Positions 4,996-51,404 of a DNA stretch of 64,000 bases are shown piece by piece. The DNA is from Pseudomonadota bacterium. GTDB taxonomy: Bacteria; Pseudomonadota; Gammaproteobacteria; Acidiferrobacterales; Acidiferrobacteraceae. Both the position numbers and the translations under genes were made by a program. The stretch is from the NCBI GenBank assembly GCA_021777535.1, contig JAJYDN010000002.1, positions 64,949 to 128,948 on the forward strand, in the 5' to 3' direction. Position 1 is the first letter of the stretch. Every line of letters begins with the position of its first letter. The notes under the pieces were generated by a model that was not told where the DNA came from, made no database searches, and saw only the letters and a program-made list of their open reading frames with translations.

Positions 4996-6030
4996 TCATG
5001 CAGGCGGCTGGTAGGCGCCACGGCGCGCCATGCCATTGGCCGTGGCGCGTTGGTAGAGCAGTCTCTGTGCTGCGGCAGCCTGGCTTGCGTCGCCTTTCCA
5101 GAGCTCCATGGCTGGCTGCTGGATCGCCCGCGAGAAGGAAAAGGTGAGGGCCCAGGGTGCCTTGTCACGCCAGCGGACGTTCATCGCGTTCAGGCGTACC
5201 GAAGCCATCTCGGCACTTTGGCCTCCCGAAAGAAAAGCGATACCCGGGACCGCCGCAGGTACCGCGCGCAACAGAACCTTTACCGTCGTGTCCGCTACTT
5301 CTTCTACGCCGGCCTGAACGGGGCAGTCCGCTCCCGAGAGCACCATGTTCGGCTTCAGGATCATGCCTTCGAGAAGAACGCGCTGTTCATACAATTGGGC
5401 AAACACGCTGCGCAGTGCAGCCTCCGTGACCTCGGCGCACCGTTCCAGTGTGTGGTCCCCGTCCATGAGCACTTCAGGCTCGACGATGGGCACGAGACCC
5501 GCTTCCTGACACAAGCCGGCGTAGCGCGCAAGCCCGTGGGCGTTGGCTTCGAGGCAGCCGCGGCTCGGGATACCCTTGCCGATCGCAATGACGGCGCGCC
5601 ACTTGGCGAAGCGGGCGCCCATCTGCCGGTATTCGGCCAGCCGCTCGCGCAGCCGGTCCAGCCCTTCGGTGACCTTCTCCCCGGGGTGTGCGGCGAGATC
5701 CTTGGCGCCTGCATCCACCTTGATGCCCGCTATGATGCCGGCCTTTGCAAGCAGCATCAAAAACGCCGTCCCATCGCTTGCCGTCTGGCGGATGGTTTCA
5801 TCATACAAAATGGCGCTACTGATATGTTCGCCCAGGCCGGGTGTGGTGAGGATCAGTTCGCGCCACGCGCGGCGCGCATCCACGGTTTCGGGAATTCCGA
5901 GCTTGGCGAAGCGCCGGTTGGCAGTCGGATTGCTTTCGTCCATGGCGAGTATTCCCTTGCCCGCCTGCATCATCATCCGCGCCGTGCTGGCAAGGTCCTG
6001 CGCCACGGGGGTAAGTTCAAGCAAACCCAT
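4996..6030 (-). CDS. class I fructose-bisphosphate aldolase
   Basis: A 344-residue metal-independent aldolase that cleaves fructose-1,6-bisphosphate to dihydroxyacetone phosphate and glyceraldehyde-3-phosphate, or runs the reaction in reverse in gluconeogenesis and the Calvin cycle. The family signature is clear: GKGILAMDESNPTANRRF near the N-terminus, KWRAVIAIG, and the Schiff-base lysine in GMILKPNMV near residue 227, followed by FLSGGQS. The length matches the eukaryote-like class I enzymes. AGGAGG lies 7 bases before the ATG at 6030. With iPGM, PEP synthase and PDH components elsewhere in the window, it supports active triose and hexose interconversion. The gene appears monocistronic. Confidence 0.93.
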   Translation of the reverse strand: MGLLELTPVAQDLASTARMMMQAGKGILAMDESNPTANRRFAKLGIPETVDARRAWRELILTTPGLGEHISSAILYDETIRQTASDGTAFLMLLAKAGIIAGIKVDAGAKDLAAHPGEKVTEGLDRLRERLAEYRQMGARFAKWRAVIAIGKGIPSRGCLEANAHGLARYAGLCQEAGLVPIVEPEVLMDGDHTLERCAEVTEAALRSVFAQLYEQRVLLEGMILKPNMVLSGADCPVQAGVEEVADTTVKVLLRAVPAAVPGIAFLSGGQSAEMASVRLNAMNVRWRDKAPWALTFSFSRAIQQPAMELWKGDASQAAAAQRLLYQRATANGMARRGAYQPPA

Positions 6031-34718: not shown

Positions 34719-36077
34719 ATGGCGCTGAGTTCCCTTGGCCGGGCCGTCGCAGTATGCACCTGCCTGCTTGTGGCAGGTCCGCCTGTGCGGGCGGCAGACC
34801 TGCTGCGGATCTATCGGGCGGCGGTGGCGCATGATCCCGTGCTGGCCCAGGCGCGGGCGCAGCTTGCCGAAGACCGCGCGGGACTGCCCGTGGCCCGGTC
34901 GGCCCTGTATCCGCATGTGAGTGCGGCAGCAAGTGTCGGTGGCAACCGGGCGCATGTGACGGGTATCGGCCTGCCGATCCTTGCAGATTACCTCTCCGAC
35001 AGCTACAGCGTGACCCTGACCCAGCCCCTTTTCAATGGACAGGCGCTGAGCGCGCTCGGGGTTGCCCGCGCCCAGGTGCGCGCCGGAGAGGCCGGGCTGG
35101 TCCAGGCGGAGCAGCATCTCATGCTGGCAGTGACGGACGCGTATTTCAGTGTTCTGGAGGCGCAGGCGGACGCCCGTGTGGCGGAAAAGCAACGGCGGCT
35201 CCTTGGCGCCATCTACCGGCAGACACGGGCGTTCCTGCGGGTCGGCACGGGCGACGCCATCGCCGTCCAGGAGGCGCGCGCAAACTTCCAGGCATCCCGG
35301 GCAAGCGAGATCGTTGCGCGCAATGCGGTGCGCGTGGCACGCCAGAAACTCTGGCGGCTTACGCACCGCACGTTCCGCCATTTGCGGGACCTCGGGCCGA
35401 TACGGGCCCAACTGCCGCATCCCGACGTGGTAGGACCGTGGCTTGCGGCGGCCTTTGCCAATCAGCCCCTCCTGCACGAGGCGCAGGCGAATGTCCGCGC
35501 GGCCCGGGCGACTGTACACTTCGAGGAGCGGGCCGCCTGGCCGACGCTGACTGTGGTCGGTGTGGCCCAGCACGGATTGGGCCTCTTGTTGCCCCGGGTG
35601 GAGGTAAACCAGGTGGGCGCGAGCCTCGATCTGTCCTTTCCCATTTACCAGGGTGGCGGCGTATCGGCGCAGACCGAGCGGGCGCAGGCCGCGGCCGCGG
35701 TCACCAGCAACCGGCTGCGCGATATCCGCGATTCCATTCGTGTGGATACGAAGACGGCATTTCTCGATCTGCAAAGCAGCGCGTCTGAACTCCATGCGGC
35801 GCGCGCCGCCGATACCGCTGCGCGTGTTTCCCTGCGCGCGACCCGCAAGGGATATGAAGTGGGGACGCGCTCGATCATCGATGTCCTGAATACGGCGACA
35901 GAAGACGCGGCAGCCGAGCGCAGCTACAACCTCGCCCTCTATAATCAGGTTATGGCGCGCGTGGCCCTCAAAGCCGCGGCGGGGATCCTGAAACCGCAGG
36001 ACATCCTGGCAATCAATGCGCTGCTTTCGCGTACGCCTGTTAGATCGGTGCGGCGGCGCCAAGCAGAAAATCCTTAG
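34719..36077 (+). CDS. TolC-family outer-membrane efflux protein
   Basis: A 452-residue outer-membrane channel. The signal peptide ends near PPVRAAD. Two repeated helical parts have the OEP pattern YRAAVAHDPVLAQARAQL, YSVTLTQPLFNGQ, LSFPIYQGGG and GTRSIIDVLNTATE. It is the first gene of a five-gene exporter operon with HlyD, ATPase and two permeases. The TolC subunit would trimerise and dock with the periplasmic adaptor. The start is supported by the signal peptide; the ribosome site is weak. Confidence 0.92.
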   Translation: MALSSLGRAVAVCTCLLVAGPPVRAADLLRIYRAAVAHDPVLAQARAQLAEDRAGLPVARSALYPHVSAAASVGGNRAHVTGIGLPILADYLSDSYSVTLTQPLFNGQALSALGVARAQVRAGEAGLVQAEQHLMLAVTDAYFSVLEAQADARVAEKQRRLLGAIYRQTRAFLRVGTGDAIAVQEARANFQASRASEIVARNAVRVARQKLWRLTHRTFRHLRDLGPIRAQLPHPDVVGPWLAAAFANQPLLHEAQANVRAARATVHFEERAAWPTLTVVGVAQHGLGLLLPRVEVNQVGASLDLSFPIYQGGGVSAQTERAQAAAAVTSNRLRDIRDSIRVDTKTAFLDLQSSASELHAARAADTAARVSLRATRKGYEVGTRSIIDVLNTATEDAAAERSYNLALYNQVMARVALKAAAGILKPQDILAINALLSRTPVRSVRRRQAENP

Positions 36078-36095
36078 AAGAGTGTCTGGCGGGGA

Positions 36096-37130
36096 GTGAG
36101 CGTGAAGCGCAAAATCATGATACCGGTGGCTATCGGTGCGATTGCCATTGTAGCGGTCGGACTCTATCTCCTGGTGAGCGGCCGCCGGGGTCAGGGGCGG
36201 GCGATCGAAATCTACGGCAACATCGATATCCGCCAGGTGCAGCTTGCGTTCAACGACGCGGGGCGGATCAGGCGGCTCGACGTGGAAGAGGGGGCCGCAG
36301 TGCGTCCGGGCGAGCTGCTTGCGGAAATGGATGCCGCGCGCTTCAAGGATGCGGTCAACCGCGCCCAGGGCCAGATGAGGCAGCAAAGGCAGATTCTGGC
36401 CAAGCTTTTGGCCGGCAGCCGTCCTGAGGAGATCACCGCGGCCCGGGCGCAGGTAGCGGGGGCACAAGCCGACTGGCGCAACGCAGCCATCAATTATCAC
36501 CGGATGCGGGTGCTCTATGGCGGCCATTACGTCTCCCGCGAGGCCGTCGATAATGCGCGGCGTACCCTCGATGCGGCAGCGGCAAGCCTAAAGGAGGCGC
36601 GCCAGACGTGGATACTGGCGGTCAAGGGCCCGCGCAAGGAAGACATTGCCGCGGCGCGTGCCGCGTTACAGGCCGATCAGGGCGCCCTGGCACTTGCGCG
36701 CCGCGAGCTTGCCGATACGCATCTCCATGCGACCGCAGACGGTGTCGTCGAAGACCGTATTCTCGAGGTGGGGGACATGGCGACCCCGGCAACACCGGTG
36801 TTCACGATTGCGCTCAATAACCCCGTGTGGGCACGCGCCTATCTCCCGGAGACGGAACTTGCGCGTGTCGAGCCGGGCATGCGCGCCTATATCGAGAACA
36901 AGGATCTGCCGAACCGGCGGTATGTGGGCTGGGTCGGCTATGTGTCGCCGACTGCGGAATTCACGCCCAAGACGGTGGAGACGACGGAACTGCGCAGCCA
37001 GCTCGTCTACACCGTGCGCATCTATGCCTGTAACCCGACTGGCGCCTTGCGGCTCGGGATGCCTGTGACCGTACTCATTCCGGCACAGAAAGGGCCGCGC
37101 CCGCTGCCGGCGCACCCCTGCGGGTCTTGA
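36096..37130 (+). CDS. HlyD-family periplasmic adaptor (YbhG-like)
   Basis: A 344-residue membrane-fusion protein: one N-terminal membrane helix (IPVAIGAIAIVAVGLYLLV), an N-terminal lipoyl half AFNDAGRIRRLDVEEGAAVRPGE, a long coiled coil (about residues 85-190), the second lipoyl half LHATADGVVEDRILEVGDMATP, and a beta-barrel end. It links the ABC permeases to TolC. It begins with GTG near a GGGGAG site and follows the TolC gene by 18 bases. Confidence 0.92.
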   Translation: MSVKRKIMIPVAIGAIAIVAVGLYLLVSGRRGQGRAIEIYGNIDIRQVQLAFNDAGRIRRLDVEEGAAVRPGELLAEMDAARFKDAVNRAQGQMRQQRQILAKLLAGSRPEEITAARAQVAGAQADWRNAAINYHRMRVLYGGHYVSREAVDNARRTLDAAAASLKEARQTWILAVKGPRKEDIAAARAALQADQGALALARRELADTHLHATADGVVEDRILEVGDMATPATPVFTIALNNPVWARAYLPETELARVEPGMRAYIENKDLPNRRYVGWVGYVSPTAEFTPKTVETTELRSQLVYTVRIYACNPTGALRLGMPVTVLIPAQKGPRPLPAHPCGS

Positions 37131-37132
37131 TC

Positions 37133-38881
37133 ATGGCCGCCGGGGCACCCCTTCTCGAGGTGCATGACGTGCGCAAGACTTTCCGCGCGGCAAAGGAAGT
37201 CATTACGGCCGTATCGGATGTGAGCTTCACGGTGCCGGCGGGCGCGATCACCGGGCTTTTGGGCCCTGACGGGGCGGGCAAGACGACACTCATGCGCCTG
37301 TGCGCCGGGTTGCTGCTGCCAGACAGCGGCCGTGTCGTGGCGCTCGGCTTTGACAGCCGCCAGGCCGCCTACCGTATCCAGCAGTCGGTCGGCTACATGC
37401 CGCAGCGCTTCGGTTTGTACGAGGATCTCACGGTACAGGAGAACCTCGATCTATTCGCCGATCTGAACGGTGTGGCGAGGGCCCTGCGCCCCGCGCGCTA
37501 CGCCGACCTGCTGCGGCTTACGGGACTCGGGCCTTTTGGTAAAAGGCTCGCCAGGGATCTGTCCGGCGGCATGAAGCAGAAACTGGGCCTTGCCTGTACG
37601 CTCGTTCGGCCGCCGCGCCTGCTCGTACTGGACGAGCCTACCGTCGGTGTCGATCCGATTTCCCGGCGCGAACTCTGGGCCATCGTCAGCGATCTCGTGT
37701 CCGGGAGCGGCACCGGAATCCTGGTCAGCACCGCTTATCTTGACGAGGCCGAGCGTTGCCAGAATGTCCTGCTCGTGCACCGCGGCAAAGTGCTCGATCA
37801 GGGGCCGCCTGGGGATTTCCGTGCGCGGATGGCCGGGCGCAGCTTTTTTGCAACCGGCGCGGGTGCGTCGGGGCGCGCGATCCAGGCGAGCCTTGCCGGT
37901 CACGGGGAATTCGTCGATGCGGTCGTGCAGCGCGACGGCGTGCGCGTTGTGCTGCGGCCCGATGCCCCCATGCCCGTGTTGCCGGGTATCGCCTTTACAC
38001 CCGTCCCGCCGCGATTCGAGGACGCTTTCGTGGAGCGTCTGCGGGAGGCTGCACCGGGGCCCGCCGGGGCAATGGCGTCGATGGTGCCGGCGCAAGGAGG
38101 CCCGCAGGACGGATCTCCCGAAGTGATGATCGAGGTGCATGATCTGCGGCGTCTGTTCGGTTCATTTGAAGCGGTTCGCGGCATAAGCTTTCGCGTCCAC
38201 CGCGGCCAGATATTCGGGCTCCTCGGCGCCAACGGCGCCGGCAAGACGACGACGTTCCGCATGCTGTGCGGTCTGCTGCCGCCGTCTTCGGGAACCCTGA
38301 CGGTGGCCGGGGTCGATGTGCGCAGCGCGGCAGCCGCCGCGCGTGCCCGGATGGGCTATATGTCGCAGAAGTTTTCCCTTTACGGGGATCTCAGTGTCGC
38401 CCAGAACCTGGCGTTTTTTTCCGCAGCTTACGGCTTGCGGGGGGCGCGGCGCGCACAAAGATTGCGCTGGGCCGCCGAGGTCTTCGAACTCGATCCATTC
38501 TGGGATATCAATACCACCGAGCTGGCTTTGGGCTTCAAGCAGCGGCTGGCCCTCGCTTGCGCCCTGATCCATGAGCCCCGGATCCTCTTTCTGGACGAAC
38601 CGACGTCGGGCGTGGATCCCCTTGCGCGCCGTGAATTCTGGGGACGCATCAACGCGCTCGCCGAACAGGGGGTCACCATCATGGTGACGACCCATTTCAT
38701 GGAAGAAGCGGAATACTGCGATGAGCTCGTGCTGATGTCGCTTGGGAGCATTCTGGCAGCGGGCCCGCCCGCACAGATCCGGGCCCGCGCGAAGACTGAG
38801 GCGATGCCGGATCCCACGATGGATGACGCCTTTATCGCCCTGATCGCGGCGCACGAGGCGCAGACCAGGCGCGCATCATGA
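37133..38881 (+). CDS. ABC transporter ATPase with two fused NBDs (YbhF-like)
   Basis: A 582-residue protein of two ATP-binding domains. NBD1: Walker A GPDGAGKTT, signature LSGGMKQKLGLA, Walker B LLVLDEPTVGVDP. NBD2: GANGAGKTTT, a degenerate signature ALGFKQRLALA, and ILFLDEPTSGVDP. A degenerate second signature is usual in the YbhF family, so it is not a local defect. It energises the two ABC-2 permeases encoded next, with which it overlaps by 4 bases. The ATG at 37133 lies just after the hlyD stop. Confidence 0.92.
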   Translation: MAAGAPLLEVHDVRKTFRAAKEVITAVSDVSFTVPAGAITGLLGPDGAGKTTLMRLCAGLLLPDSGRVVALGFDSRQAAYRIQQSVGYMPQRFGLYEDLTVQENLDLFADLNGVARALRPARYADLLRLTGLGPFGKRLARDLSGGMKQKLGLACTLVRPPRLLVLDEPTVGVDPISRRELWAIVSDLVSGSGTGILVSTAYLDEAERCQNVLLVHRGKVLDQGPPGDFRARMAGRSFFATGAGASGRAIQASLAGHGEFVDAVVQRDGVRVVLRPDAPMPVLPGIAFTPVPPRFEDAFVERLREAAPGPAGAMASMVPAQGGPQDGSPEVMIEVHDLRRLFGSFEAVRGISFRVHRGQIFGLLGANGAGKTTTFRMLCGLLPPSSGTLTVAGVDVRSAAAAARARMGYMSQKFSLYGDLSVAQNLAFFSAAYGLRGARRAQRLRWAAEVFELDPFWDINTTELALGFKQRLALACALIHEPRILFLDEPTSGVDPLARREFWGRINALAEQGVTIMVTTHFMEEAEYCDELVLMSLGSILAAGPPAQIRARAKTEAMPDPTMDDAFIALIAAHEAQTRRAS

Positions 38882-39993
38882 ATGGCGAGCGGCTGTTGGC
38901 GCTGATGCGCAAGGAGATGCTGCAGATCGTCCGCGACCCTTCGTCGATCGCAATCGCGTTCGTCATGCCGCTCTTTCTGCTTTTGCTGTTCGGTTATGGG
39001 GTGTCGCTGGACGCGCGGCACGTCCCCATCGCACTGGTCGCGTCCCATCCGACGCCGCAGACAAGTGCGTTCTTTGCCGGTTTCCAGGGGTCTCCCTATT
39101 TCAATCCGCGCCTTTATCCGGACATGCCGCTTGCACGGCGTGCACTGATGGGGCGGGACGTCGATGGCATCGTGTGGCTGCGCGCGGACTTCAGCCGCGG
39201 GACGCTGCAGGGTGCGGCGGCCCCCGTGAGCGTGATCGTCAACGGCGTCAATGCAAACAATGCACGGATCATCGAGGGTTATGTTCAGGGGGTGTGGGCA
39301 AGCTGGCTTGCCACGCAGGCGCAACGGCGCGGCAGTCCGCTGATACTGCCGGTCGATGTGCGCAGCCGCGTGTGGTTCAACCCGGCGTTGCGCAGCCACG
39401 ACTATCTCGTGCCAGGCCTCATTGCGGTCATCATGACGTTGATCGGCGCCCTTCTTACGGCGCTGGTGGTCGCTCGCGAGTGGGAACGCGGGACCATGGA
39501 AGCCCTCATGGCGTCGCCTGCCACCATGGCAGAGATACTGGTCGGCAAGCTGATTCCTTACTTTCTTCTCGGTATGGGTGGCATGGGGATTACGCTGGTG
39601 CTGGCCATGGGGTTGTTCTCCGTGCCGCTGGTCGGGTCCTTCTGGGTCCTGGTTCTGTGTTCGGCCCTTTTTCTGATGACCGCTCTCGGGATGGGGCTTT
39701 TGATCTCGACGATCGCGAAGAACCAGTTCGTGGCCGGCATGATCGCGCTCGTTGCCACCTATCTTCCGGCCTTCATTCTCTCGGGCTTCATATTCGATAT
39801 CCATTCGATGCCCTGGCCGATCCGCGCGGTCACGCATCTCATTGCCGCACGCTACTTCGTGTCGATACTGCAGACCCTGTTTCTGGCAGGCGACGTGTGG
39901 CCGGTCATCGCCCGCAATAGCGGAGCACTCGTGCTCATAGCGGCCTTCTTTCTCGCGCTCGTGGCCCGTATCTCACGCAAGAGGCTTGACTGA
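38878..39993 (+). CDS. ABC-2 permease (YbhS-like)
   Basis: A 371-residue membrane subunit: one N-terminal helix (AIAFVMPLFLLLLFGYGVSLDA), a large periplasmic domain, then five C-terminal helices with EWERGTMEALMASP, the ABC-2 coupling-helix motif, and FILSGFIFDIHSMPWPIRAVTHLIAARYF. It starts 4 bases inside the ATPase gene and shares its last base with the next permease gene. Probably half of a heterodimeric exporter for drugs or cationic compounds. Confidence 0.93.
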   Translation: MNGERLLALMRKEMLQIVRDPSSIAIAFVMPLFLLLLFGYGVSLDARHVPIALVASHPTPQTSAFFAGFQGSPYFNPRLYPDMPLARRALMGRDVDGIVWLRADFSRGTLQGAAAPVSVIVNGVNANNARIIEGYVQGVWASWLATQAQRRGSPLILPVDVRSRVWFNPALRSHDYLVPGLIAVIMTLIGALLTALVVAREWERGTMEALMASPATMAEILVGKLIPYFLLGMGGMGITLVLAMGLFSVPLVGSFWVLVLCSALFLMTALGMGLLISTIAKNQFVAGMIALVATYLPAFILSGFIFDIHSMPWPIRAVTHLIAARYFVSILQTLFLAGDVWPVIARNSGALVLIAAFFLALVARISRKRLD

Positions 39994-41108
39994 TGGGATG
40001 GTACGGAAGAGTGAGAGCGCTGGTGATGAAGGAGTTTCTGGCGCTCTTGCGGAGCAAGGCAAGCCGCACAGTCCTGATCGTGCCACCTCTGGTCCAGCTC
40101 ATCGTGTTCAGTTTTGCGGCAACCTTCAATCTCCAGCATGTTCCTGTCGTAATCTACGATCAGGACCAGGGCGGGGCTTCGCGGGAGCTGATCGCGCGTT
40201 TCGCCGGGTCGCGATATTTTTCGATCGAGAAGATGCTGGCGAGCAGCCAGCATATTGCGCGGATGATAAGCGACAAGGAGGCGCTGCTTGCGATCCGCAT
40301 CGGGCCCCGGTTCAGCCAGGATCTGGCCTTGCACCGGAGCGCCCGCGTGGCAGTGCTGGTCGACGGCCGCAATTCGAATACGGCGCTTGTCGCGCTGGGG
40401 GACGTGAACGCCGTCATCCAGTCTTTCGATAACCGGTGGGCGGCAACGCATGGCTGGCATGCGGCACCGGCCGTTTTGGTCGAGCGCGCGTGGTTCAATC
40501 CGGATCTGCGGTCGCGCTGGTTCATCGTGCCGGGAATCGTGGGCCTCCTGACCCTGGTGGTGGCCCTGCTCGTGACCGGCCTTTCGGTTGCGCGGGAGCG
40601 GGAAGCGGGCACCTTCGATCAACTGCTGGTGACCCCCCTGGCGCCGTGGGAGATCCTGGTGGGCAAGGCCTTTCCCGGATTTCTGATCGGGACGCTCGAG
40701 GCCACGCTCATCATCCTCGTCGCGGTGTTCGGGTTCGGGGTTCCCTTTGTGGGCAGTATTTGGGCACTCTATCTCGGCCTTCTTCTGTTTCTGCTGGCCG
40801 CGATCGGCGTGGGTCTTGCGATCTCGTCGGCATCGGCCACCCAGCAGCAGGGCCTGCTCGGGGTCTTTCTCTTCATGGTGCCCGCCGTGATCCTGTCGGG
40901 GTTTGCAACCCCCATCGCGAACATGCCCCGTGCCGTGCAATATCTCACCTATCTCAATCCCCTGCGGTACTTCCTCATCATTCTCCGCGGCGTGTTCCTG
41001 GAGGGCGACGGGATTGCCATTCTCTGGACGCAGTATGTCCCGCTGATTTTCATAGGTCTGGTGACCATGACGATTGCCACCTTTCTGTTCCGGCACCGCC
41101 TGACGTAG
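39993..41108 (+). CDS. ABC-2 permease (YbhR-like)
   Basis: A 371-residue paralogue of the preceding permease with the same layout: N-terminal helix, periplasmic domain, and C-terminal helices with EREAGTFDQLLVTPLAPWEILVGK and SGFATPIANMPRAVQYLTYLNPLRYFL. Together with the ATPase, HlyD and TolC proteins it completes a tripartite exporter. The operon ends here; no clear hairpin was found directly after. Confidence 0.93.
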   Translation: MGWYGRVRALVMKEFLALLRSKASRTVLIVPPLVQLIVFSFAATFNLQHVPVVIYDQDQGGASRELIARFAGSRYFSIEKMLASSQHIARMISDKEALLAIRIGPRFSQDLALHRSARVAVLVDGRNSNTALVALGDVNAVIQSFDNRWAATHGWHAAPAVLVERAWFNPDLRSRWFIVPGIVGLLTLVVALLVTGLSVAREREAGTFDQLLVTPLAPWEILVGKAFPGFLIGTLEATLIILVAVFGFGVPFVGSIWALYLGLLLFLLAAIGVGLAISSASATQQQGLLGVFLFMVPAVILSGFATPIANMPRAVQYLTYLNPLRYFLIILRGVFLEGDGIAILWTQYVPLIFIGLVTMTIATFLFRHRLT

Positions 41109-42848: not shown

Positions 42849-43154
42849 ATGCGACACTGGTCTGCGTTGCTGCTTTTGATTGCGAGCCCCTGTGCATGGG
42901 CATCCTTGCAGTTGCCGGACTATGCGCAGGGCGCCGATCTGCAAATGGCGCTCGAAACAAGGGCGCGCGCCATCACGGACGTCATCGCGCTTATCGTGAG
43001 CATCCTCGCCATCATCGGCATCTTTATTGGCGCCGGATATTTTGCGACCGGCCAGAGTGAGAGGGGCCGCAGCTACGTCGTCGGCAGTGTCATAGGTCTC
43101 GTGCTGGCGGCCTGCGCCTACGGAATCGCTAATCTCGTAGCGGGTCCGGTGTAA
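42849..43154 (+). CDS. VirB2/TrbC-like pilin
   Basis: A 101-residue protein with a signal peptide (MRHWSALLLLIASPCAWA) and two membrane helices (ITDVIALIVSILAIIGIFIGAGYFA and SYVVGSVIGLVLAACAYGIANLV), the size and layout of VirB2/TrbC pilin precursors. The mature subunit would be about 83 residues. It is the first gene of the operon, with GGAGGG 6 bases before its ATG. Identification rests on layout and gene order; the sequence itself is weakly conserved. Confidence 0.7.
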   Translation: MRHWSALLLLIASPCAWASLQLPDYAQGADLQMALETRARAITDVIALIVSILAIIGIFIGAGYFATGQSERGRSYVVGSVIGLVLAACAYGIANLVAGPV

Positions 43155-43411
43155 TGTCGGCCTTCAACCGCCGGTTGTCGTTGCCGCGCGTGGCCGGGCT
43201 GCCGCTTCCCGTCGCCATCGGATGGCTGGTCGCGGGTACCACGCTTTTGCTCGCGGTGATTACGCGGCTCCCTGTCTTGTTCTGCGCCACGGCGGCGTCT
43301 GCACTTTTTGCGCTTGCCTGCCTGCGTCTTGGCGAGGATCTGCGCCTGTGGCGCGTCATGATCTGCGCCATTTCAGAAAAGCGCCGGGTCCTGGCAGAGG
43401 GGCGCATATGA
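43154..43411 (+). CDS. VirB3/TrbD-like membrane protein
   Basis: An 85-residue protein with a basic N-terminus, two adjacent hydrophobic stretches (PVAIGWLVAGTTLLLAVITRLPVLFCATAASALFALACL) and a cytoplasmic end. VirB3 proteins have the same size and a helical hairpin, and normally precede VirB4. Its ATG shares one base with the pilin stop, and its stop overlaps the VirB4 start (ATGA). Confidence 0.68.
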   Translation: MSAFNRRLSLPRVAGLPLPVAIGWLVAGTTLLLAVITRLPVLFCATAASALFALACLRLGEDLRLWRVMICAISEKRRVLAEGRI

Positions 43412-45711
43412 GTGCGCGCCGCTACTGCGACCTGTACACCTGGTCGCATCCGCTCACCCCCCATGTGCTGGCGCACACGGACGGCGCCGTGTCGGCCGCG
43501 ATCGCCTGGGCGGGCCTCGACTGTGAGTTTGCCGTTTTGGCCGCGCGCAGCCAGGCATTCGCGGCGATCGAAAAACTTTTAAAGGAAATGCCGCAGGGCT
43601 GTTGGCTGGAATTTCACTTGTGGCGCCAGGCGGACCCAAAGGCAGTGGATCCCTACCGGGCCCATTATGCCAGGGCCGCCCGGCCTAGCCCCTTTGCCAA
43701 GGCCATCCGCACCGCGTTGGCCGATCATCTCGCGGGCCTCGTGTTCGTCAATCAGCTGGCGGCAATCGCCGGTGTCTTGCCGCCCCCGCGCCTGCAAAGG
43801 GCCAAGCGGGCCCTGGCGGCGCAATGTGCGCGGGCAGAGGAACTCGAGGAGCAGATCGCCGCTCTTGCGCAGGCGCTGCCGGGGGCGCGGCTGCTGGCCG
43901 CCGACGACTATGTGGCGCTCATCCGCGCAAGCTACGACGGATCGGCTGCCGTCTGCCGTGATCCGTGGCTGTCGCTTGCCGAGCAAATCGCCGCAGTGCC
44001 TCCCGTCCCCGATGGCCAGGGCCTGCAGGCCGGCGAATGCGCATGGCGCATCCTCTATCTGCAGGCCTATGCCGACGCGGAGCCCGGGTGGGTCATGCCG
44101 CTCGTATCGGTACCGATACCGCTCCACATAAGCCAGATCGTCGTCGCCGCCGATACCGAACACACTCTGCGCGCGCTGGAGCGGGCCGACCGCCTGGCCA
44201 TGGGCACCATCGGCCACCGCGGACGCGAGCGGCAACTGGAAGTGCTTGCGGACATGCAGGCATTCCGCCGCCTGGTGGCGCAGAAGGATCTCAGTGTCCA
44301 TCGCAACGCCTATATTCTGGCGGTTCCGGGGGATGCCGCCCATGCGGCGCCGGTGAGGGAGTTGCTGGCCGCCCTGCATCGCGGCGGCAGCCAGGTTCGC
44401 ACCGATCGTTTCGTTCAACTGCCGTTTTTCCGGGCGGCGCAGCCCGGACAGGGCTACCGCGCGCCCGCATGGCGCCCGGATCATGCCCGCCAGATCGCAT
44501 CGATGGCTCCCGTTCAGGGCTTCCGTGCCGGCGCGGACCGCCCGGAAAGCCTGCGCATAGGCATGGCGAGCCAGCCTGTGTCCTTCGATTACAGCGGGCA
44601 GGTCGTAGGGCACGCGTTTACGGTCGCCATGACCGGCGCCGGCAAGGGCGTGGACAAGGTTGCGACCATCGCTGAAACCTATCCCTTCGGTATCGATTGG
44701 TATGTCCTCGAGGTCGGCGGAACCTACAGGTGGGTCGTCGAGGCCCTTGGCGGCACGTACACCTGTCTCGATCCGGAACGTTCGGCCGTCAATCCGCTGC
44801 CCGCCCGCGCCGCCGCAGCGAACGGCTTGCCACCGGCGTTGGCGTCGGCCACGCTCAACATCCTCTCCTTCCTGTTGACCGACGGGCGCACGACGCTTGA
44901 TTTTCACGAAGCAGCGGCTGCCGGACAGGCGCTGGCGGCACTCTACGCAGTCCCGGCGGCAAGTGATCCCGGCCTCGTCGATCTGCTCGCCTCCCTGCAG
45001 GGTCTGGCCGCCGTTCCCAGGGATCAACGGCGGGCGGCGGCGCGCATGGCGGCCAACCTGCAAAGCTTCCTGTCGACGCCCGAGGGCGCGATCTTTGCCG
45101 GTTCCGACAATGTGACCTTGAGCACGGGGATAAGCGGTGTCGATCTGAAGGAGATCGACCGGGCAGGCGGCAAGATGCTCACGTTCTACCTGGTCTTCCT
45201 GTGCCTGCGCTTCCTGAACATGGCATTTTCCAAGCGTACACCATCACGCATCCTGCTAGACGAGATCCATCGCTTTGTGGCCCATGCGCCTGACGTGCTG
45301 CGCCGGCTGGTATCGGAGGTGGCGCGCATGGGCCGCAAGGAGAACGCCTCGATAGATATCGTCACGCAGGGCTTGCAGGAGATCGACGTCATGGAAGCGG
45401 AGATTGTCAATTCCATGCCCATCCGGTCGCTTCTGTACCGGACCGATGGCTGGGAGGAGATCGGAAGCCGCATCGGCATGCCACCGGCGGCGCTCGCCAT
45501 CTGGAAGAGTTTTCCTTTTCCGCTGGCCATGCCCTGGCGGCCCGCGATCCGCTCGGTCGGGCCGGAATATTTTGCGGTGCGGCTTACTTTTCCGCGGCTG
45601 CTCCTCGATCTGGCGGATACCACTCCGCAGGGTCTGGCCGCCAAGGCCGATATCGGGGCGCGCGTCGCCGATCCGCTCGAGCGCCTGCGCCGGCTGCGGG
45701 AGAGACTGTGA
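43408..45711 (+). CDS. virB4: VirB4/TrbE-like secretion ATPase with altered Walker A
   Basis: A 767-residue ATPase of the VirB4/TraC family that would energise pilus assembly or substrate transfer at the inner membrane. The C-terminal motor has the family context VGHAFTVAMTGAGKGVDK, WYVLEVGGTYRWVVEALGGTY, NPLP and Walker B RILLDEIHRF near residue 613, then VTQGLQEI. The Walker A (about residues 406-413) reads AMTGAGKG: Gly replaces the Ser/Thr that binds Mg2+. The ATG at 43408 is the ATGA overlap with VirB3; the longer open frame has no support. Either the motor is weakened or it uses an unusual P-loop. Confidence 0.85.
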   Translation: MSARRYCDLYTWSHPLTPHVLAHTDGAVSAAIAWAGLDCEFAVLAARSQAFAAIEKLLKEMPQGCWLEFHLWRQADPKAVDPYRAHYARAARPSPFAKAIRTALADHLAGLVFVNQLAAIAGVLPPPRLQRAKRALAAQCARAEELEEQIAALAQALPGARLLAADDYVALIRASYDGSAAVCRDPWLSLAEQIAAVPPVPDGQGLQAGECAWRILYLQAYADAEPGWVMPLVSVPIPLHISQIVVAADTEHTLRALERADRLAMGTIGHRGRERQLEVLADMQAFRRLVAQKDLSVHRNAYILAVPGDAAHAAPVRELLAALHRGGSQVRTDRFVQLPFFRAAQPGQGYRAPAWRPDHARQIASMAPVQGFRAGADRPESLRIGMASQPVSFDYSGQVVGHAFTVAMTGAGKGVDKVATIAETYPFGIDWYVLEVGGTYRWVVEALGGTYTCLDPERSAVNPLPARAAAANGLPPALASATLNILSFLLTDGRTTLDFHEAAAAGQALAALYAVPAASDPGLVDLLASLQGLAAVPRDQRRAAARMAANLQSFLSTPEGAIFAGSDNVTLSTGISGVDLKEIDRAGGKMLTFYLVFLCLRFLNMAFSKRTPSRILLDEIHRFVAHAPDVLRRLVSEVARMGRKENASIDIVTQGLQEIDVMEAEIVNSMPIRSLLYRTDGWEEIGSRIGMPPAALAIWKSFPFPLAMPWRPAIRSVGPEYFAVRLTFPRLLLDLADTTPQGLAAKADIGARVADPLERLRRLRERL

Positions 45712-46328
45712 GCCGCATCATTGCAGTCGTCGTCTTGTCGCTTCTTGCATCGGCACCCTGCCAGGCCTTCCTGGGTGTCGGCGATATCACTTTTGATCCG
45801 GCCGTGCACACGGAACTCCTTACCATGTACCAGCAAGCCATGCGTCTCTACCAGACCACGATTCGCCAGCTTGACCGGCTGAACCGGATCCAGTCGGCGC
45901 TGCAATCGGCACAAGCCAATATCCATCGCGTCCTCAATACGCAGCTCGTCCAGTATGCGCAAAAAACGCTCACTCTCGCCGTTCCGCCGGGACTCTCCCG
46001 ATTGCTGCGCGCGCCCGCGACCATCTTGAGTTCGGCGCGCCGCACGATTCTCTATTACGACGGCCAGTTGCACCGGCTTGCCCGCGCAGCCCGTCTGCGT
46101 ATTCTGAGTCATGGCGTGCGCGCCAACGTCAGCAAGGCCGCCAGTGATCTGGGGGTGCGCAGCAGCGGCGATATCACCGCGCAATCGACGGCCACGCTGG
46201 CCTCTCTTGCCGCGCAAAGGGCACGTCAGGGGGCCCGGCGGGCCGTGCGGCGGGCAGCCGGCCGCCACAATGACGCCCATGTTTCGGCCGAGACGGCAGC
46301 CCTTTACGGGGCGCTCGCGAGCCCATGA
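45708..46328 (+). CDS. VirB5/TrbJ-like protein
   Basis: A 206-residue secreted protein. Signal peptide MSRIIAVVVLSLLASAPCQA, then FLGVGDITFDPAVHTELLTMYQQAMRLYQTTIRQLDRL, a pattern typical of TrbJ/VirB5 (FDPTNLxQN...YxxQxxQL). The rest is helical with Arg-rich segments near the end. VirB5 proteins sit at the pilus tip or help pilin assembly. It starts at a GTG overlapping the VirB4 stop and ends in an ATGA overlap with the next gene. Confidence 0.72.
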   Translation: MSRIIAVVVLSLLASAPCQAFLGVGDITFDPAVHTELLTMYQQAMRLYQTTIRQLDRLNRIQSALQSAQANIHRVLNTQLVQYAQKTLTLAVPPGLSRLLRAPATILSSARRTILYYDGQLHRLARAARLRILSHGVRANVSKAASDLGVRSSGDITAQSTATLASLAAQRARQGARRAVRRAAGRHNDAHVSAETAALYGALASP

Positions 46329-47380
46329 CGGCGGCGTCGCTGGTCGGTTCGCTGTTGGCGGCCTTGGATCCCGGCGTCATCGAGAAGCTGGTAAAACCCG
46401 CCATGGCCATGTTGCTGGAAACGGTGACCCCGACTTTGTTTCTGATCGCACTCTATGGGCGGCTCCTTGAGGCCCAGATGGCGGTAGTCGGAGGGGCGGG
46501 CCGCTATGCGGTGGCGTTGCGGGACATGGGACTCTATGGCGTCCTCATTGTTTCCTACGCCATGCTCGGGGGTCTCGTCGGCCACTACCTGAACAGTCTC
46601 TACAGGGCCCTTGGGAGTCTCGGATCGCTGCACGCCGTCAGCATCGAGATGACCGCATTGCTGAAGCAGGCGGCCGTGCGTCCGCATGGGGCGCTTGCGA
46701 CCATCGAGGAAATAGACAGTCTGCCCATGCAGATCGTGACGATGGGGATCTACTACCTGACGCTCGTCATCACGGCCTTCCTGGTCGCGCTCCTGCGGAT
46801 TGCGCAGGTGCTCGGCTACGAGTTCGCCTTTCTGTACGGACTGATCGCGCTGCCCCTGGCGCTGAGCAACATCCTGAGCCTGGTCCGCGGATGGGCGAAA
46901 CTCATGGGGTTCTTCCTTCTGTGGCCTGTCGTGGAAGCGCTTTTGCTGGCCGTGTTTGCGCCGCTTTTCACGCACGCGCTGAAGGCGCTCATGCAGGTGG
47001 CGGGACCGAGCGGCTACATGGTGGTCTACGCGCACATGATCTTCACGATCCTGAACCTGATTCTGTGCGCCGTTCTCCTTGCCGCGCCCTATGTGACGGC
47101 GACGTTGATCGACAACGCCGGCAGTGCGCAGCCATTGTTCGCCCCCTATGTCACATCGCTCGGTGGTACCGGTCAGGCGATGGCGGCGAGTCTCGAGGCA
47201 CGCGTGCGCCAGATGCTGGACAGCATCCCGCAGGACCGCGCGCCCATGACCTCCGATGCGCGCCGCATGCCCGAGCTCCATATCCCGCCGGATCCGGATT
47301 ACCACCCGAGCATCGCCACGGGCGATGTGCCAAAAACCAATTATCTCGATCCGCGTTTCGACGGCCCGCCCAAGGAGTGA
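46325..47380 (+). CDS. VirB6/TrbL-like polytopic membrane protein
   Basis: A 351-residue protein with about five to six hydrophobic segments (for example GLYGVLIVSYAMLGGLVGHYL, IYYLTLVITAFLVALLRIAQVL, LMGFFLLWPVVEALLLAVF, MIFTILNLILCAVLLAAPYV) and a soluble Pro-rich tail. VirB6/TrbL forms part of the inner-membrane channel. Position right after the VirB5-like gene supports the assignment; the sequence is too diverged for a firm family call. Confidence 0.7.
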   Translation: MTAASLVGSLLAALDPGVIEKLVKPAMAMLLETVTPTLFLIALYGRLLEAQMAVVGGAGRYAVALRDMGLYGVLIVSYAMLGGLVGHYLNSLYRALGSLGSLHAVSIEMTALLKQAAVRPHGALATIEEIDSLPMQIVTMGIYYLTLVITAFLVALLRIAQVLGYEFAFLYGLIALPLALSNILSLVRGWAKLMGFFLLWPVVEALLLAVFAPLFTHALKALMQVAGPSGYMVVYAHMIFTILNLILCAVLLAAPYVTATLIDNAGSAQPLFAPYVTSLGGTGQAMAASLEARVRQMLDSIPQDRAPMTSDARRMPELHIPPDPDYHPSIATGDVPKTNYLDPRFDGPPKE

Positions 47381-47385
47381 GCGCG

Positions 47386-48015
47386 ATGCGTCCCGATGAA
47401 AATCCGTGGCTCAAGCACGGCCCCCAGGGCTTTCTCGTACGCAGGCTCGCGCGGCATGCGCTGACCGGATGGCTGCTCTTTGCCGCAAGCGGCCTTGCTC
47501 TGACCATCGAGAGCCTCGCCGCCGTCCTGAAAAGTCCGGCCATTGTCGTCGCAAGCCCAAACGGCCGCATCCTCGGCCGTATCCGCTGGGAGGGCCATGG
47601 CGTGCGCTCGAACCGGCAGATGGTGCGCGCCGCGGTCCGTTTTACGCGTGACTACCTGAGCGTCAACAGTGGCACGATCGTCCACGATTATGCGAGCGCG
47701 CTTGGCATGATGTCGGGCCGTTTGCTTGCGCGGACGGTAAAGGCGTTGCGCGCGACCCATTATCTGGCGCGAGTCCGCCTGGATCGAACACGCTCCTGGC
47801 TTACGCTTGGACGGGGTCCGCAGATGCCCCACCTGGCGGCCTGGTCCGGGCATACCGCTTTGGTGCGCGTGCAGGGTGTCCTTCATGTGATTCTGGCCAA
47901 TGGCCACGAGATACACGAGGCCTTCGGCGTTCTTTTGCGCCTCGTGCCCGCGCGGCGCACGGTGCGCAACGCAAGTGGAGCCTGCGTGACCGCGATCCGT
48001 TTCATCCGCGCATGA
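47386..48015 (+). CDS. VirB8/TrbF-like protein
   Basis: A 209-residue bitopic protein: cytoplasmic N-terminus, one membrane helix (ALTGWLLFAASGLALTI), then a periplasmic domain with VVASPNGRILGRIRWEG, VRFTRDYLSVNSGTIVHDYASAL, like the NTF2-fold VirB8/TrbF domain. AAGGAG lies 9 bases before the ATG at 47386; the frame is open upstream through the VirB6-like gene but without a start signal. VirB8 is the assembly hub between inner-membrane and outer-membrane parts. Confidence 0.68.
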   Translation: MRPDENPWLKHGPQGFLVRRLARHALTGWLLFAASGLALTIESLAAVLKSPAIVVASPNGRILGRIRWEGHGVRSNRQMVRAAVRFTRDYLSVNSGTIVHDYASALGMMSGRLLARTVKALRATHYLARVRLDRTRSWLTLGRGPQMPHLAAWSGHTALVRVQGVLHVILANGHEIHEAFGVLLRLVPARRTVRNASGACVTAIRFIRA

Positions 48016-48752
48016 TGACGCCACCGCCTGTGGGTGTGATAAGTCCGCGTGCGCGGTATGTGGTGCTGCGGCCCTATACTGCGGCGAGGGCGGTGATGAT
48101 CCCCAATCTGGGTTTGCGGCTCGTCTTCCCTTCGTCGCAGGCGCGGTCGCTCGTCCTTGCGGTGACCAACCCCCTCTTTCATGCCACGGTCCTGCCGCGC
48201 GGCGGCGGTGTCGTGCTGACGGCAGGCGGCGGTTTTCATCATCATTACTGCACCAACGTGTTCGCGGCGCTCGGTGCCTATCGTGTCTCCCTCTTTGTCT
48301 GCACGGCGTATGCGCCGCACCGGTACACGAGTGATCTCCTGTTCGTCATGCCACGCGCGCCGGGGCCGCCGCCTGTAGTGCGCCACGCGCCGTGGGCGGC
48401 CCTTGCCGCGCGGCTTGCGTGGACGAGGCCGCGCGTGCACCCGATCCGCAAGCGCGCCGCCGCGCAATGGGCGGTGGGGCAAGTGGCGCTCGATGTCCGT
48501 TCCCGCGTGGCGGCCGGGGCACACGAGGTGTTTACGGTGCGCATCCGCACGCAGTCCCGCCAGATCAGGATCCTCGGCCTTGCGCTGTATGCCGGCCGCC
48601 CGTGGCGGGTACTGCGGTCCCATTTTTACTGCAGCGCCCCGGCGGGTACGGCGGTGCGTTGCGTAGTCATTGCCCCGCGAGGGCGCCCGCCGGTGGGCCA
48701 CTGGCACATGGTGCTGGCTGCCTCCGGCGGGAGCCTGCGGGTCTCATGGTAG
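48012..48752 (+). CDS. VirB9/TrbG/TraK-position protein
   Basis: A 246-residue protein of beta-strand character. Segments such as VVLRPYTAARAVMIPNLGLRLVF and YCTNVFAALGAYRVSLFVCTA resemble the strand pattern of the VirB9/TraK outer-ring proteins, where a TN dipeptide precedes a conserved YxxxL strand. No clear signal peptide is seen at the N-terminus (MMTPPPVGVISPRARYVV), which is unusual for a VirB9. The assignment leans on gene order: it lies between the VirB8-like and VirB10-like genes with short overlaps on both sides. Confidence 0.5.
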   Translation: MMTPPPVGVISPRARYVVLRPYTAARAVMIPNLGLRLVFPSSQARSLVLAVTNPLFHATVLPRGGGVVLTAGGGFHHHYCTNVFAALGAYRVSLFVCTAYAPHRYTSDLLFVMPRAPGPPPVVRHAPWAALAARLAWTRPRVHPIRKRAAAQWAVGQVALDVRSRVAAGAHEVFTVRIRTQSRQIRILGLALYAGRPWRVLRSHFYCSAPAGTAVRCVVIAPRGRPPVGHWHMVLAASGGSLRVSW

Positions 48753-49462
48753 GCCACCTGCCGGCGCAGGAGGTGCGCCGCCTGGCCCATGCCCCGGCAC
48801 CTGCGCGCGCCCCGTGGATGCGCCTCTTGCGGGTGTTGCCGCTTGCGCCAGGGCCGGTGCGGATGCCGGCGCGCCGACGCGTGCGCCGCCACCGCGCGGC
48901 CGCCTTTTCGTATTACCGGCATGCAGGGCGCCTGCAGGTGGTGGGAAGCAAGGCGCGCAGCTTCGGCATCCCCGCCGGTACCTGGATTGCCGCCCGGCTC
49001 ACCCGTGTGGCCACGAGCGCCAATACGGCGCTCATCGTGTTGCGCACGCGGGTGGCGGTACGCGGCCGTGCCGGCACTCTTGCGGCCGGATCGGTGCTGC
49101 TTGCGCGCGCCGAACAGGTGGTGGGGGATCGTCTCATGCTGAGTGTGCGTGAGGCCGTGACGCCGCATGGCGACGCAATCCCCATGTCCGGGGTCGTGTT
49201 CGATGGCGCCTATCACATAGGGCTTTGCGGTTTCGTGAAAGGCAGGCAGGCGTCGCGTTCGTGGCTTGCGCTTGGCCGGTCGCTCGTGCAAAGCGCCGAT
49301 CAGGCGCTATCGTTGGTCGGAGGCGGCGGATCGACGCCAGCCGCGGCGCTTGGGCGCGCCGGCCGCTCGGTCCTGGGCGCCTCCATACGCTGGCGTCGCG
49401 TGCGCAGGATTCTGTACGTACCGCCCCAATTCGTCGAAGTCCAACTGGAAAAGCCCATATGA
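48746..49462 (+). CDS. VirB10/TrbI-like core protein without a visible membrane anchor
   Basis: A 238-residue protein whose last 165 residues match the TrbI/VirB10 beta-barrel core: FGIPAGTWIAARLTRVATSANT, VRGRAGTLAAGSVLLARAEQV, GDAIPMSGVVFDGAYHIGLCGFV. Normal VirB10 proteins begin with a cytoplasmic part, a membrane helix and a long Pro-rich linker that spans the periplasm. Here only about 70 basic, Pro/Arg-rich residues precede the core and no membrane helix is visible. The ATG overlaps the end of the preceding gene by 7 bases. Confidence 0.65.
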   Translation: MVGHLPAQEVRRLAHAPAPARAPWMRLLRVLPLAPGPVRMPARRRVRRHRAAAFSYYRHAGRLQVVGSKARSFGIPAGTWIAARLTRVATSANTALIVLRTRVAVRGRAGTLAAGSVLLARAEQVVGDRLMLSVREAVTPHGDAIPMSGVVFDGAYHIGLCGFVKGRQASRSWLALGRSLVQSADQALSLVGGGGSTPAAALGRAGRSVLGASIRWRRVRRILYVPPQFVEVQLEKPI

Positions 49463-49998
49463 AAAAGACCGTTGTGCTGTTGTGCGTGGTGGCCGCCAGG
49501 GCGCATGCCTGGCAGTTCTCCGTCGGAACCGGTGCGGACTGGGCACAGGCGCCGGCCCTGGGTGGTGTGGCCGCGATGACCGGCGTAAGCGGGGAAGCAG
49601 TCCTTTCGCGCCAGCCGTTCGCCGGGCGCCGGTGGGCGCTGGTTCTGGGTGAGTCGAATCTGGGCACGGCGCTCGGCGCGCGGCATGTCGAGGCCATCAC
49701 GGCGTGGCGTGCCCGCGTTCTGTGGGAATGGCGGTTGCCGTTGTTTTACCGGTTCCGGCCGTGGTGGGGCGCCGGCATCGGCGCCGACTGGCTTGAGCGC
49801 AGCGACCGCTACATAACGGATGCGCTCGGTTACGCGCAGAGCCATAGCGCAAACCAGAGGGATTGGCTGCCGACGTGGAGCATCGTGGCGGTGGCGCCTT
49901 TGCCGGCGCACCTTGCCCTGCAGCTGGCACTGACATCCGGCGTGGGGCCGCATCCGCTGTCGACGGTGACGGCATCTTTGCTGTGGCGGATTTTCTAA
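49459..49998 (+). CDS. outer-membrane beta-barrel-like protein
   Basis: A 179-residue secreted protein: signal-like start MKKTVVLLCVVAARAHA, then alternating-hydrophobic strands rich in Trp and Gly (WQFSVGTGADWAQAP, WWGAGIGADWLERS) and a C-terminal Phe (SLLWRIF), the usual end of outer-membrane beta-barrels. The pattern resembles small eight-strand barrels such as acyloxyacyl-hydrolase/PagL-like proteins, without visible catalytic residues. Its ATG overlaps the VirB10-like stop by 4 bases, so it belongs to the operon. Confidence 0.6.
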   Translation: MKKTVVLLCVVAARAHAWQFSVGTGADWAQAPALGGVAAMTGVSGEAVLSRQPFAGRRWALVLGESNLGTALGARHVEAITAWRARVLWEWRLPLFYRFRPWWGAGIGADWLERSDRYITDALGYAQSHSANQRDWLPTWSIVAVAPLPAHLALQLALTSGVGPHPLSTVTASLLWRIF

Positions 49999-50009
49999 AG
50001 GGAGGGCGT

Positions 50010-51404
50010 ATGCGTGTCAAGCGATGGGCGTGGTGGCCGTTGTGTGCATGGCTTTGTGGTTGCCAGCTGGGACAGGTATCGGCGCCGCCGCTGCTGCCGA
50101 CGGGCGTCGTGAGCGGGGTCGTCACAGGGGGCCAGCCACTGGCTGGCGCGCCGGTGGAAATATTCGCCAACGGGGTGATGGTAGGCGGCACCCGCACCGA
50201 CGACAGCGGACGATTCGCCGTCGATTTGGCGATTCCGAGCGCAACGCTCGCCGTGCGCACGCCCGGTGTGGCGTATGTCCGGGCAGCGGATAACGCGGAG
50301 GTGGTGAGCGGGCCGTTGCAGGCGCAAATCGCCTACCAGCAGGGGCAAAACGCAACCGCTGCGGTGTCGCCCTTTAGCACCGTGGCGAGCGCCATCGCGG
50401 CTTATCTGGAGGGGACGGGCATTGGCACGGCCGCGGCGCTCAGTGATGCCGACCAGGAACTGGCGGAGTGGATCGGAGTTTCGCCGCTCACCGTACCGCA
50501 GTTTCCTGTAGCGGGCACCAGCACGCTGTCGCCGGCGGCGGAACTGGGGCTTGCCCTGGGGGGCCTGTCTTTCTGGGCGCATGCGCAGGGGCAGACCACG
50601 GCTGTAGTGACGGCGCTCATGTTGAGTGACATCGCCCACAATGGCCTGCTGGACGGGGCCGGAACGAACGGGCCGCTGCAGTTGGGCACAGAACCGCTGT
50701 CGGCGAACGCCTATCGTCAGGGATTGGCCGATGGCGTACTGCAGGCGGCGGCCGCAAGCGGTTTGCTCGGTACGCCGCAGACACCGTTGGCGCGCGCCAT
50801 CACGGCGTATGCCGACACGCTTGCCATTAGCACCTCGCCGCTCTTTGGCGGGGCTGCGGTGGTCCCCTTCGGGCAAGCGCCCATTTCGGTAACCCTTTCA
50901 CCGCAGCCGCACTGGACGCGCGGCACGCTCACGCTTGCGGGCACGGTAAGCGATCCCTTGTCCTTGCCGGTGTCGGTGACACTGGCCATCGACGGCACGG
51001 CCAGCCAAAACGTGGTCACGCCGGGGCCGTTTGCCTTCTCGATCAATACCGCCGCCTTCGCCGATGGCATGCACAGCCTTGCCGTGGCGGCCGCCGACGG
51101 GGCCGGAGAGCTGGGTCAGGCAGAGACCGAGGTGGGTTTCGACAACGGCGGCCCCCAAGCCTGTGTCCGCTCGTTCATTGCCGGGTCGCCGCTTGGCACA
51201 TTGCAGGGGAACTGGTCGGATCCGGCGGGCATCACCCGCGCAATCTTCGCCGGGGGCCCGCTGCATATCCTGCCAAACGGCACCTGGTCGGTCATTACGC
51301 TGCCGCTTTTCGTGCAGCCGGCGCGGCTTATGTTGAGCGACGCGGCCGGCAATGTGCGGACGTTTGTGTGGAATGTGCGGCTCGGCCAGGGCGGCTGCGG
51401 CTGA
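50010..51404 (+). CDS. large lipoprotein with a carboxypeptidase-regulatory-like domain
   Basis: A 464-residue envelope protein. A short signal peptide ends in LCGC-QL (Cys18), a lipobox-like site. Residues 32-75 (GVVSGVVTGGQPLAGAPVEIFANG...TDDSGRFAVDL) form a CarbopepD_reg-like beta-sandwich. The middle is Ala/Leu-rich helical, and the C-terminal third (VSVTLAIDGTASQNVV, MHSLAVAAADGAGE) looks Ig-like. AAAGGGAGGG precedes the ATG at 50010. As the last gene of the operon it could be the outer-membrane anchor or surface-exposed tip of the secretion apparatus, in the place of the small VirB7 lipoprotein. This is inference. Confidence 0.68.
   Translation: MRVKRWAWWPLCAWLCGCQLGQVSAPPLLPTGVVSGVVTGGQPLAGAPVEIFANGVMVGGTRTDDSGRFAVDLAIPSATLAVRTPGVAYVRAADNAEVVSGPLQAQIAYQQGQNATAAVSPFSTVASAIAAYLEGTGIGTAAALSDADQELAEWIGVSPLTVPQFPVAGTSTLSPAAELGLALGGLSFWAHAQGQTTAVVTALMLSDIAHNGLLDGAGTNGPLQLGTEPLSANAYRQGLADGVLQAAAASGLLGTPQTPLARAITAYADTLAISTSPLFGGAAVVPFGQAPISVTLSPQPHWTRGTLTLAGTVSDPLSLPVSVTLAIDGTASQNVVTPGPFAFSINTAAFADGMHSLAVAAADGAGELGQAETEVGFDNGGPQACVRSFIAGSPLGTLQGNWSDPAGITRAIFAGGPLHILPNGTWSVITLPLFVQPARLMLSDAAGNVRTFVWNVRLGQGGCG

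Follow-up and report, generated by a model that had tools for sequence, protein, structure and literature searches.

Conjugation machines are generally regarded as belonging to mobile elements. The gonococcal genetic island carries a chromosomal type IV secretion system (T4SS) that, together with a relaxase and a coupling protein, exports chromosomal single-stranded DNA (PMC4207684, PMC8716806), and the ComB system of Helicobacter pylori takes DNA up and needs an unlinked VirB11-family ATPase, HP1421/ComB11 (PMC13395361). The system described here resembles the gonococcal one in being a chromosomally encoded T4SS with a relaxase and a coupling protein. However, the gonococcal system is F-type, has all its genes in one island, and is absent from some strains, whereas that of the Acidiferrobacteraceae has a VirB-like gene order, occupies two separate loci, and is found in nearly the whole family. 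It shares with ComB a chromosomal, lineage-fixed VirB channel without a linked VirD4 and differs from it in the presence of a relaxase-VirD4 pair and in that no VirB11 was found. Plasmids offer further comparisons. CP013100.1 from "Candidatus Tenderia electrophaga" has the same order (virB2-3-4-5-6-8-9-10, then barrel-like and lipoprotein genes downstream) and no VirB11, but it has a VirD4-like gene upstream of the operon and signal peptides on VirB9 and VirB10. Cassettes of Aquicella (NZ_LR699118.1) and Xanthomonas citri (pXAS25) pair divergent relaxase and VirD4 genes, the VirD4 proteins being 41 to 48% identical to the chromosomal one; these cassettes are on plasmids and encode larger relaxases, whereas the chromosomal pair has a 248-aa relaxase domain and no adjoining plasmid genes.

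We analyzed a 64,000-nt stretch of an Acidiferrobacteraceae genome (G000:C3:64949-128948), termed the window, in which ten open reading frames (ORFs) on the plus strand occupy positions 42849 to 51404 (Table 1). The nine junctions between them vary between an overlap of 7 bp and a gap of 11 bp, most being ATGA overlaps of 4 bp, and all ten genes, order included, are kept across related genomes. This operon encodes a very divergent VirB-type T4SS channel. The original prediction of ten compact genes in VirB order agrees with the ORFs, the junctions, the conserved order, and the identities of VirB4, VirB9, and VirB10, and its statement that relaxase, VirD4, and VirB11 are absent from the window also holds, as searches with the VirB11/T2SSE, VirD4, and relaxase families gave no match there.

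Table 1 Features of the VirB-type operon (window coordinates) and of the relaxase-VirD4 pair (contig C76)
Feature	Product	Length (aa)	Coordinates	Strand	Basis
g01	VirB2/TrbC-like pilin with signal peptide and transmembrane segments	101	42849..43154	+	Pfam TrbC, E = 8e-5, below cut-off
g02	VirB3-like small membrane protein	85	43154..43411	+	Order, size, conserved in family
g03	VirB4-type ATPase	767	43408..45711	+	NCBIfam VirB4_CagE, E = 3.6e-19, far below the model's equivalence cut-off; TraC-F, E = 1.2e-16
g04	VirB5/TrbJ-like exported protein	206	45708..46328	+	Signal peptide, order, conservation
g05	VirB6/TrbL-like polytopic membrane protein	351	46325..47380	+	Order and conservation only
g06	VirB8-like protein with one N-terminal transmembrane segment	209	47386..48015	+	Order, weak Pfam VirB8
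g07	VirB9-like protein	246	48012..48752	+	AlphaFold model matching TrwF/VirB9
g08	VirB10/TrbI-like protein	238	48746..49462	+	CagY profile, TrwE/VirB10 fold, TrbI
g09	Small exported protein, possible outer-membrane barrel	179	49459..49998	+	Signal peptide, conservation
g10	Ig-domain lipoprotein, lipobox LCGC	464	50010..51404	+	Pfam Big_7, E = 3.4e-6, over cut-off
VirD4	VirD4-type ATPase	531	G000:C76:4008-5603		TrwB_AAD_bind, E = 8.1e-11, over cut-off
Relaxase	MobA/MobL relaxase	248	C76:5737-6483	Divergent from VirD4	MobA_MobL, E = 4.7e-34 (slightly extended reading)

The components were named on different grounds: a profile match for VirB4, profile and fold matches for VirB10, a fold match for VirB9, a profile match below cut-off for VirB2, and order, size, membrane segments, and conservation for VirB3, VirB5, VirB6, and VirB8. 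Pfam was nearly empty over the operon, with TrbC (g01) and Big_7 (g10) as given in Table 1, no match for the VirB6-like g05, and a weak VirB8 match (E = 0.016) in 2 of 16 members of the g06 family. The VirB2-like gene is retained in every relative, and the lipobox of g10 is conserved among relatives. In one metagenome-assembled genome (G319; L088:about 4490-5230), g10 appears as two ORFs; apart from this case, none of the full-length operon genes is cut short across up to 17 genomes.

We then analyzed the sequences of the VirB4, VirB9, and VirB10 proteins. An alignment of 24 VirB4 members (window 43408-45711 and 23 homologues) showed that the Walker A motif of the window copy, TGAGKG, lacks Ser/Thr, its Walker B reading LLDE, and that TGxGKG replaces GKS/T across the clade, plasmid copies included, with GKD in L010. 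The Pfam VirB4 model (PF03135) found nothing in the genome of the window despite the presence of this protein, so the model misses the VirB4 of this clade. The profiles of VirB4, VirB8, and VirB9 had no match in the PDB. For g07, an AlphaFold model (pLDDT, 86) had TrwF/VirB9 as its top match (E = 5e-8), with a target TM score of 0.69 to 0.73 for the N-terminal domain, and the protein is thus VirB9-like by fold. The g08 profile (20 homologues) matched CagY structures (E = 1e-5), Pfam TrbI was matched by 11 of 18 members (best, 2.4e-9), and the g08 model (mean pLDDT, 65; central barrel, >80) matched TrwE/VirB10 (E = 3.8e-7); CagY profile, TrbI matches, and predicted fold together identify the protein as VirB10. 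The alignments behind both structure predictions were made without the row from the plasmid collection.

The VirB9 and VirB10 proteins of the Acidiferrobacteraceae have no signal peptide, and VirB10 also has no N-terminal transmembrane segment. This loss is restricted to the family: the plasmid and f77 homologues keep their signal peptides, and the family proteins start just past that position. Upstream of the VirB9 start, the frame overlaps VirB8 and, by inspection, encodes nothing hydrophobic in 16 of 16 loci. The signals of VirB2, VirB5, the barrel protein, and the lipoprotein are retained in nearly all loci. VirB9 and VirB10 without signal peptides fit an ordinary envelope channel poorly, and the absence of these peptides, like the VirB4 Walker A motif without Ser/Thr, is a puzzle.

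We then looked into the distribution and genomic position of the operon. VirB4 was present in 17 of the 18 Acidiferrobacteraceae genomes (3/3 in the genus of the window, 14/14 in the sister genus, and 0/1 in a third genus) and, elsewhere in the order, in two genomes of family f77, and a set of 299 genomes spread across the phylum gave a strong match in the window's own genome only. A VirB4 scan of genome contigs yielded 12 loci, with 61 to 75% identity for six (L001 to L006) and 45 to 48% for the remaining relatives. In these six loci, the operon is flanked by bioF-bioH-bioC and rpoH-ftsX, with bioD as well in L001 (the bio, rpoH, and fts names come from homology to the window and from reading of the sequences). 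In the window, the bio genes are gone from their side and the rpoH-ftsX-ftsE side is unchanged; a TolC/HlyD/ABC-type efflux cluster, by reading of the ORFs, lies at 34719-41108, where relatives carry the bio genes. Among 15 further family loci, bioF/bioH/bioC lie on one side wherever the flank suffices and rpoH on the other in most; L083 and L082 (from G310 and G312) have three additional opposite-strand genes between bioC and virB2.

The chromosomal VirB4 proteins are monophyletic (support, 100/100), and the T4SS and bio trees have 12 of 13 splits in common, with a distance correlation of 0.991. Median dN/dS was 0.08 to 0.24 for operon genes versus 0.04 to 0.17 for flanking genes, operon dS equaled flank dS in close pairs, and GC content was 0.664 in the operon versus 0.638 in the window. 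The operon is thus a chromosomal fixture of the Acidiferrobacteraceae, inherited vertically under purifying selection, and the original prediction of a chromosomal machine of this lineage is borne out. A conjugative element would combine relaxase, coupling protein (T4CP), and T4SS in one element and would show an integrase or attachment sites and a sporadic presence; here relaxase and VirD4 are on another contig, the location is fixed, and inheritance is vertical. By reading, no integrase-like gene was noticed at the operon or at the relaxase-VirD4 locus. A literature search on such a system in Acidiferrobacter returned nothing relevant.

Relatives of the operon also occur on plasmids. Two of the loci are plasmid-like: L010 encodes TrfA (E = 4e-45) and ParA/ParB and has a coupling protein that matches TraG-D_C over cut-off (E = 2.3e-6), and L012, which likewise encodes ParA and ParB, has a protein whose TraG-D_C match is below cut-off. 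In the plasmid collection, the sole match was CP013100.1 (L018), a 107-kb plasmid whose VirB4 is 43% identical to the window copy; its VirD4-like gene, directly upstream of the operon and with a TraG-D_C match below cut-off (E = 0.012), was named from its position and its kinship. All three have the operon in the window's order. No relatives of the operon were found among viral contigs. Systems of the CP013100.1 type are conjugation-type (mating-pair-formation [MPF]) T4SSs that form an unnamed divergent clade, and the VirD4-like protein directly upstream in the plasmid-like relatives implies that the channel module descends from conjugation. The original prediction, which took the locus not to be a conjugation module but possibly a protein- or DNA-export machine or a surface pilus, is in this respect partly right: DNA export is plausible, but the module has a conjugative origin. 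It had named a relaxase and VirD4 linked to the operon in relatives as the finding that would speak against it, and of these two the VirD4-like gene is indeed there. Nor are the barrel and lipoprotein lineage-specific additions, as CP013100.1 and further relatives have them too; their presence on the plasmid relative implies that they are not a new specialization. PLSDB classes CP013100.1 as only mobilizable (MOBP) despite its full VirB2-B10 set and VirD4-like gene. VirB4 models of the PF03135 type can miss whole T4SS families, and plasmids carrying them may consequently be mistyped.

A genome-wide search for VirB11 bore out its predicted absence: none was found near the operon, and of seven T2SSE-family matches in the genome, two (the PF00437 matches on C3 and C33) were profiled and rejected as PilT family (NCBIfam), the other five being assessed solely from the length of their frames and their gene context. 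CP013100.1 has no PF00437 protein either, so the lack is probably ancestral in the clade. F-type systems likewise have no VirB11.

The outcome was different for the relaxase and coupling protein, whose absence, as noted in the original prediction, is an effect of the window and does not extend to the genome. The L010 coupling protein, used as a query, gave a distant match in the window's own genome, on contig C76, to a VirD4-type ATPase that also matched TraD/VirD4 models below their cut-offs. Searches of this genome with the relaxase families PF03432 and PF13814 were negative, and the relaxase beside the VirD4 match was recognized as MobA/MobL; it matched a MobQ-like NCBIfam model below cut-off (E = 8.6e-35) and resembles the NES and R1162 MobA nickases of known structure. 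The VirD4 gene is conserved in 15 of the 17 T4SS-bearing family genomes (65 to 69% identity to the copy in the window genome), and the relaxase occurs in the same 15, always with VirD4. The pair occupies one conserved site, and an acetolactate-synthase-like gene adjoins it wherever contigs reach far enough. In the other two genomes (G322 and G323), the contigs stop at the gene neighboring the site, so a gap in assembly may account for the missing pair, and we dropped these as cases of absence. G324, which does not have this T4SS, has the neighborhood without the pair. The VirD4 Walker A (GGIGSGKTT) and Walker B motifs are invariant in 15/15 genomes, as are the AAY and HxHxD...N.H.H motifs of the relaxase, with a mean divergence between relaxases of 50% of sites; dN/dS was 0.16 for VirD4 and 0.39 for the relaxase. 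The genome thus encodes what conjugative DNA export calls for, a relaxase with the catalytic Tyr and His triad and a VirD4 ATPase.

Other observations bear on the origin of the pair and its relation to the operon. On the single contig of G308, the two loci are ∼0.4 Mb apart. The chromosomal VirD4 and the VirD4-like protein of the plasmid relatives belong to different T4CP lineages (30% over 200 aa). The related VirD4 proteins beside a divergent relaxase on the small Aquicella and Xanthomonas plasmids, among whose annotated genes there is no VirB channel, suggest that such cassettes are where the chromosomal pair came from. The f77 genomes G361 and G359 (L096 and L097) have the operon without the pair and no VirD4 beside it; several TraG-D_C proteins are encoded elsewhere in both. 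The T4SS-VirD4 distance correlation (0.95) is not above that of VirD4 and bio (0.98) and thus gives no sign of co-evolution beyond shared descent, and co-occurrence, coming from one clade only, is weak evidence for function. No oriT was identified on inspection of the virD4-relaxase intergenic sequence; this region (L025:5604-5736) and its homologues in most Acidiferrobacter genomes contain a conserved GATAAA...GAGCCTA.CA, a candidate oriT or promoter. A second VirD4, F-type TraD-like (545 aa), lies with a tyrosine-recombinase-like gene on a 3.3-kb contig (G000:C63; L117:1-3259), an arrangement found in G324 (L118) with a 987-aa MobF relaxase in addition; it looks like an integrative mobilizable element (IME), and we rejected this VirD4 as part of the operon's system.

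We infer that the operon and the pair cooperate and that the cargo is DNA. The best and simplest reading, to which we give an even chance, is a domesticated conjugation machine split over two chromosomal loci and exporting chromosomal DNA. In its favor are the kinship with conjugative elements, the fixation of the operon, and the conserved pair with intact motifs, which is missing together with the T4SS from G324. The channel (MPF) module would have been captured on the chromosome before the sampled genomes of Acidiferrobacter and its sister genus diverged, in their ancestor, and then inherited vertically as a core operon. VirB4 would power the assembly of the inner-membrane platform (VirB3, VirB6, and VirB8), the pilus (VirB2 and VirB5), and the core (VirB9 and VirB10). 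The Ig-domain lipoprotein would lie at the surface, along with a possible outer-membrane barrel. The substrate would be supplied in trans: the C76 MOBQ-type relaxase would nick a chromosomal site near its own gene, and the adjacent VirD4-type ATPase would dock the strand with its relaxase at the channel. Chromosomal DNA would in this way pass out of the cell, either into a partner or into the medium as with the gonococcal island (PMC4207684). Against a split machine stand the distance between the loci, the different T4CP lineage, and the f77 operon without the pair, as well as the missing signal peptides of VirB9 and VirB10, the VirB4 Walker A without Ser/Thr, the missing VirB11, and the lack of an identified oriT.

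The operon could instead be a channel repurposed, without a coupling protein, as a surface pilus or for adhesion or protein export, the relaxase-VirD4 pair being an unrelated relic or having another role. The conserved Ig-domain lipoprotein and possible barrel at the end of the operon, its retention without the pair in f77, and a relaxase that evolves faster (dN/dS, 0.39) than the operon would fit; yet the barrel-like and lipoprotein genes are on the plasmid relative too, and relaxase and VirD4 are intact in 15 genomes with invariant motifs, which makes this explanation somewhat unlikely. We consider it distinctly less probable that the operon is a shared mating pore, maintained or exploited in trans for mobilizable elements (plasmids or IMEs) with their own relaxase and VirD4. 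Such elements exist, in the form of the IME-like C63 contig in the window genome, its G324 version with a MobF relaxase, and the Aquicella and Xanthomonas plasmids, whose VirD4 is related to the chromosomal one and which have no annotated VirB channel, but hosting parasites leaves strong purifying selection for the host's sake unexplained, and the IME is present in G324, which does not have this channel.

A chromosomal, lineage-fixed VirB channel without linked VirD4 also recalls a ComB-like machine for DNA uptake (competence). ComB, however, requires a VirB11-family ATPase (PMC13395361), and none was found here (five T2SSE matches being judged by length and context); moreover, the relaxase-VirD4 pair is of the export type, and the type IV pilus ATPases suggest that the usual uptake route exists, so that competence seems improbable. 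Least credible, and very improbable in our view, is a decaying remnant of an integrated conjugative element: the operon does have no relaxase, VirD4, or VirB11, its VirB9 and VirB10 signal peptides are missing, and the G319 lipoprotein is split, but the selection data (dN/dS, 0.08 to 0.24) and the otherwise untruncated full-length genes in up to 17 genomes disfavor decay.

Returning to the split conjugation machine, the more far-reaching proposal that it is a family-wide, vertically inherited two-locus system exporting or exchanging the cells' own chromosomal DNA, and built from a divergent T4SS class missed by the standard VirB4 Pfam model, is one that we put forward tentatively, as possible rather than probable. 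In an acid-loving family, a DNA-transfer machine that is normally plasmid-borne is now chromosomal, fixed, and inherited. With channel, relaxase, and coupling protein under purifying selection at two separate chromosomal sites in two genera, it would amount to an endogenous system for gene exchange or DNA secretion.
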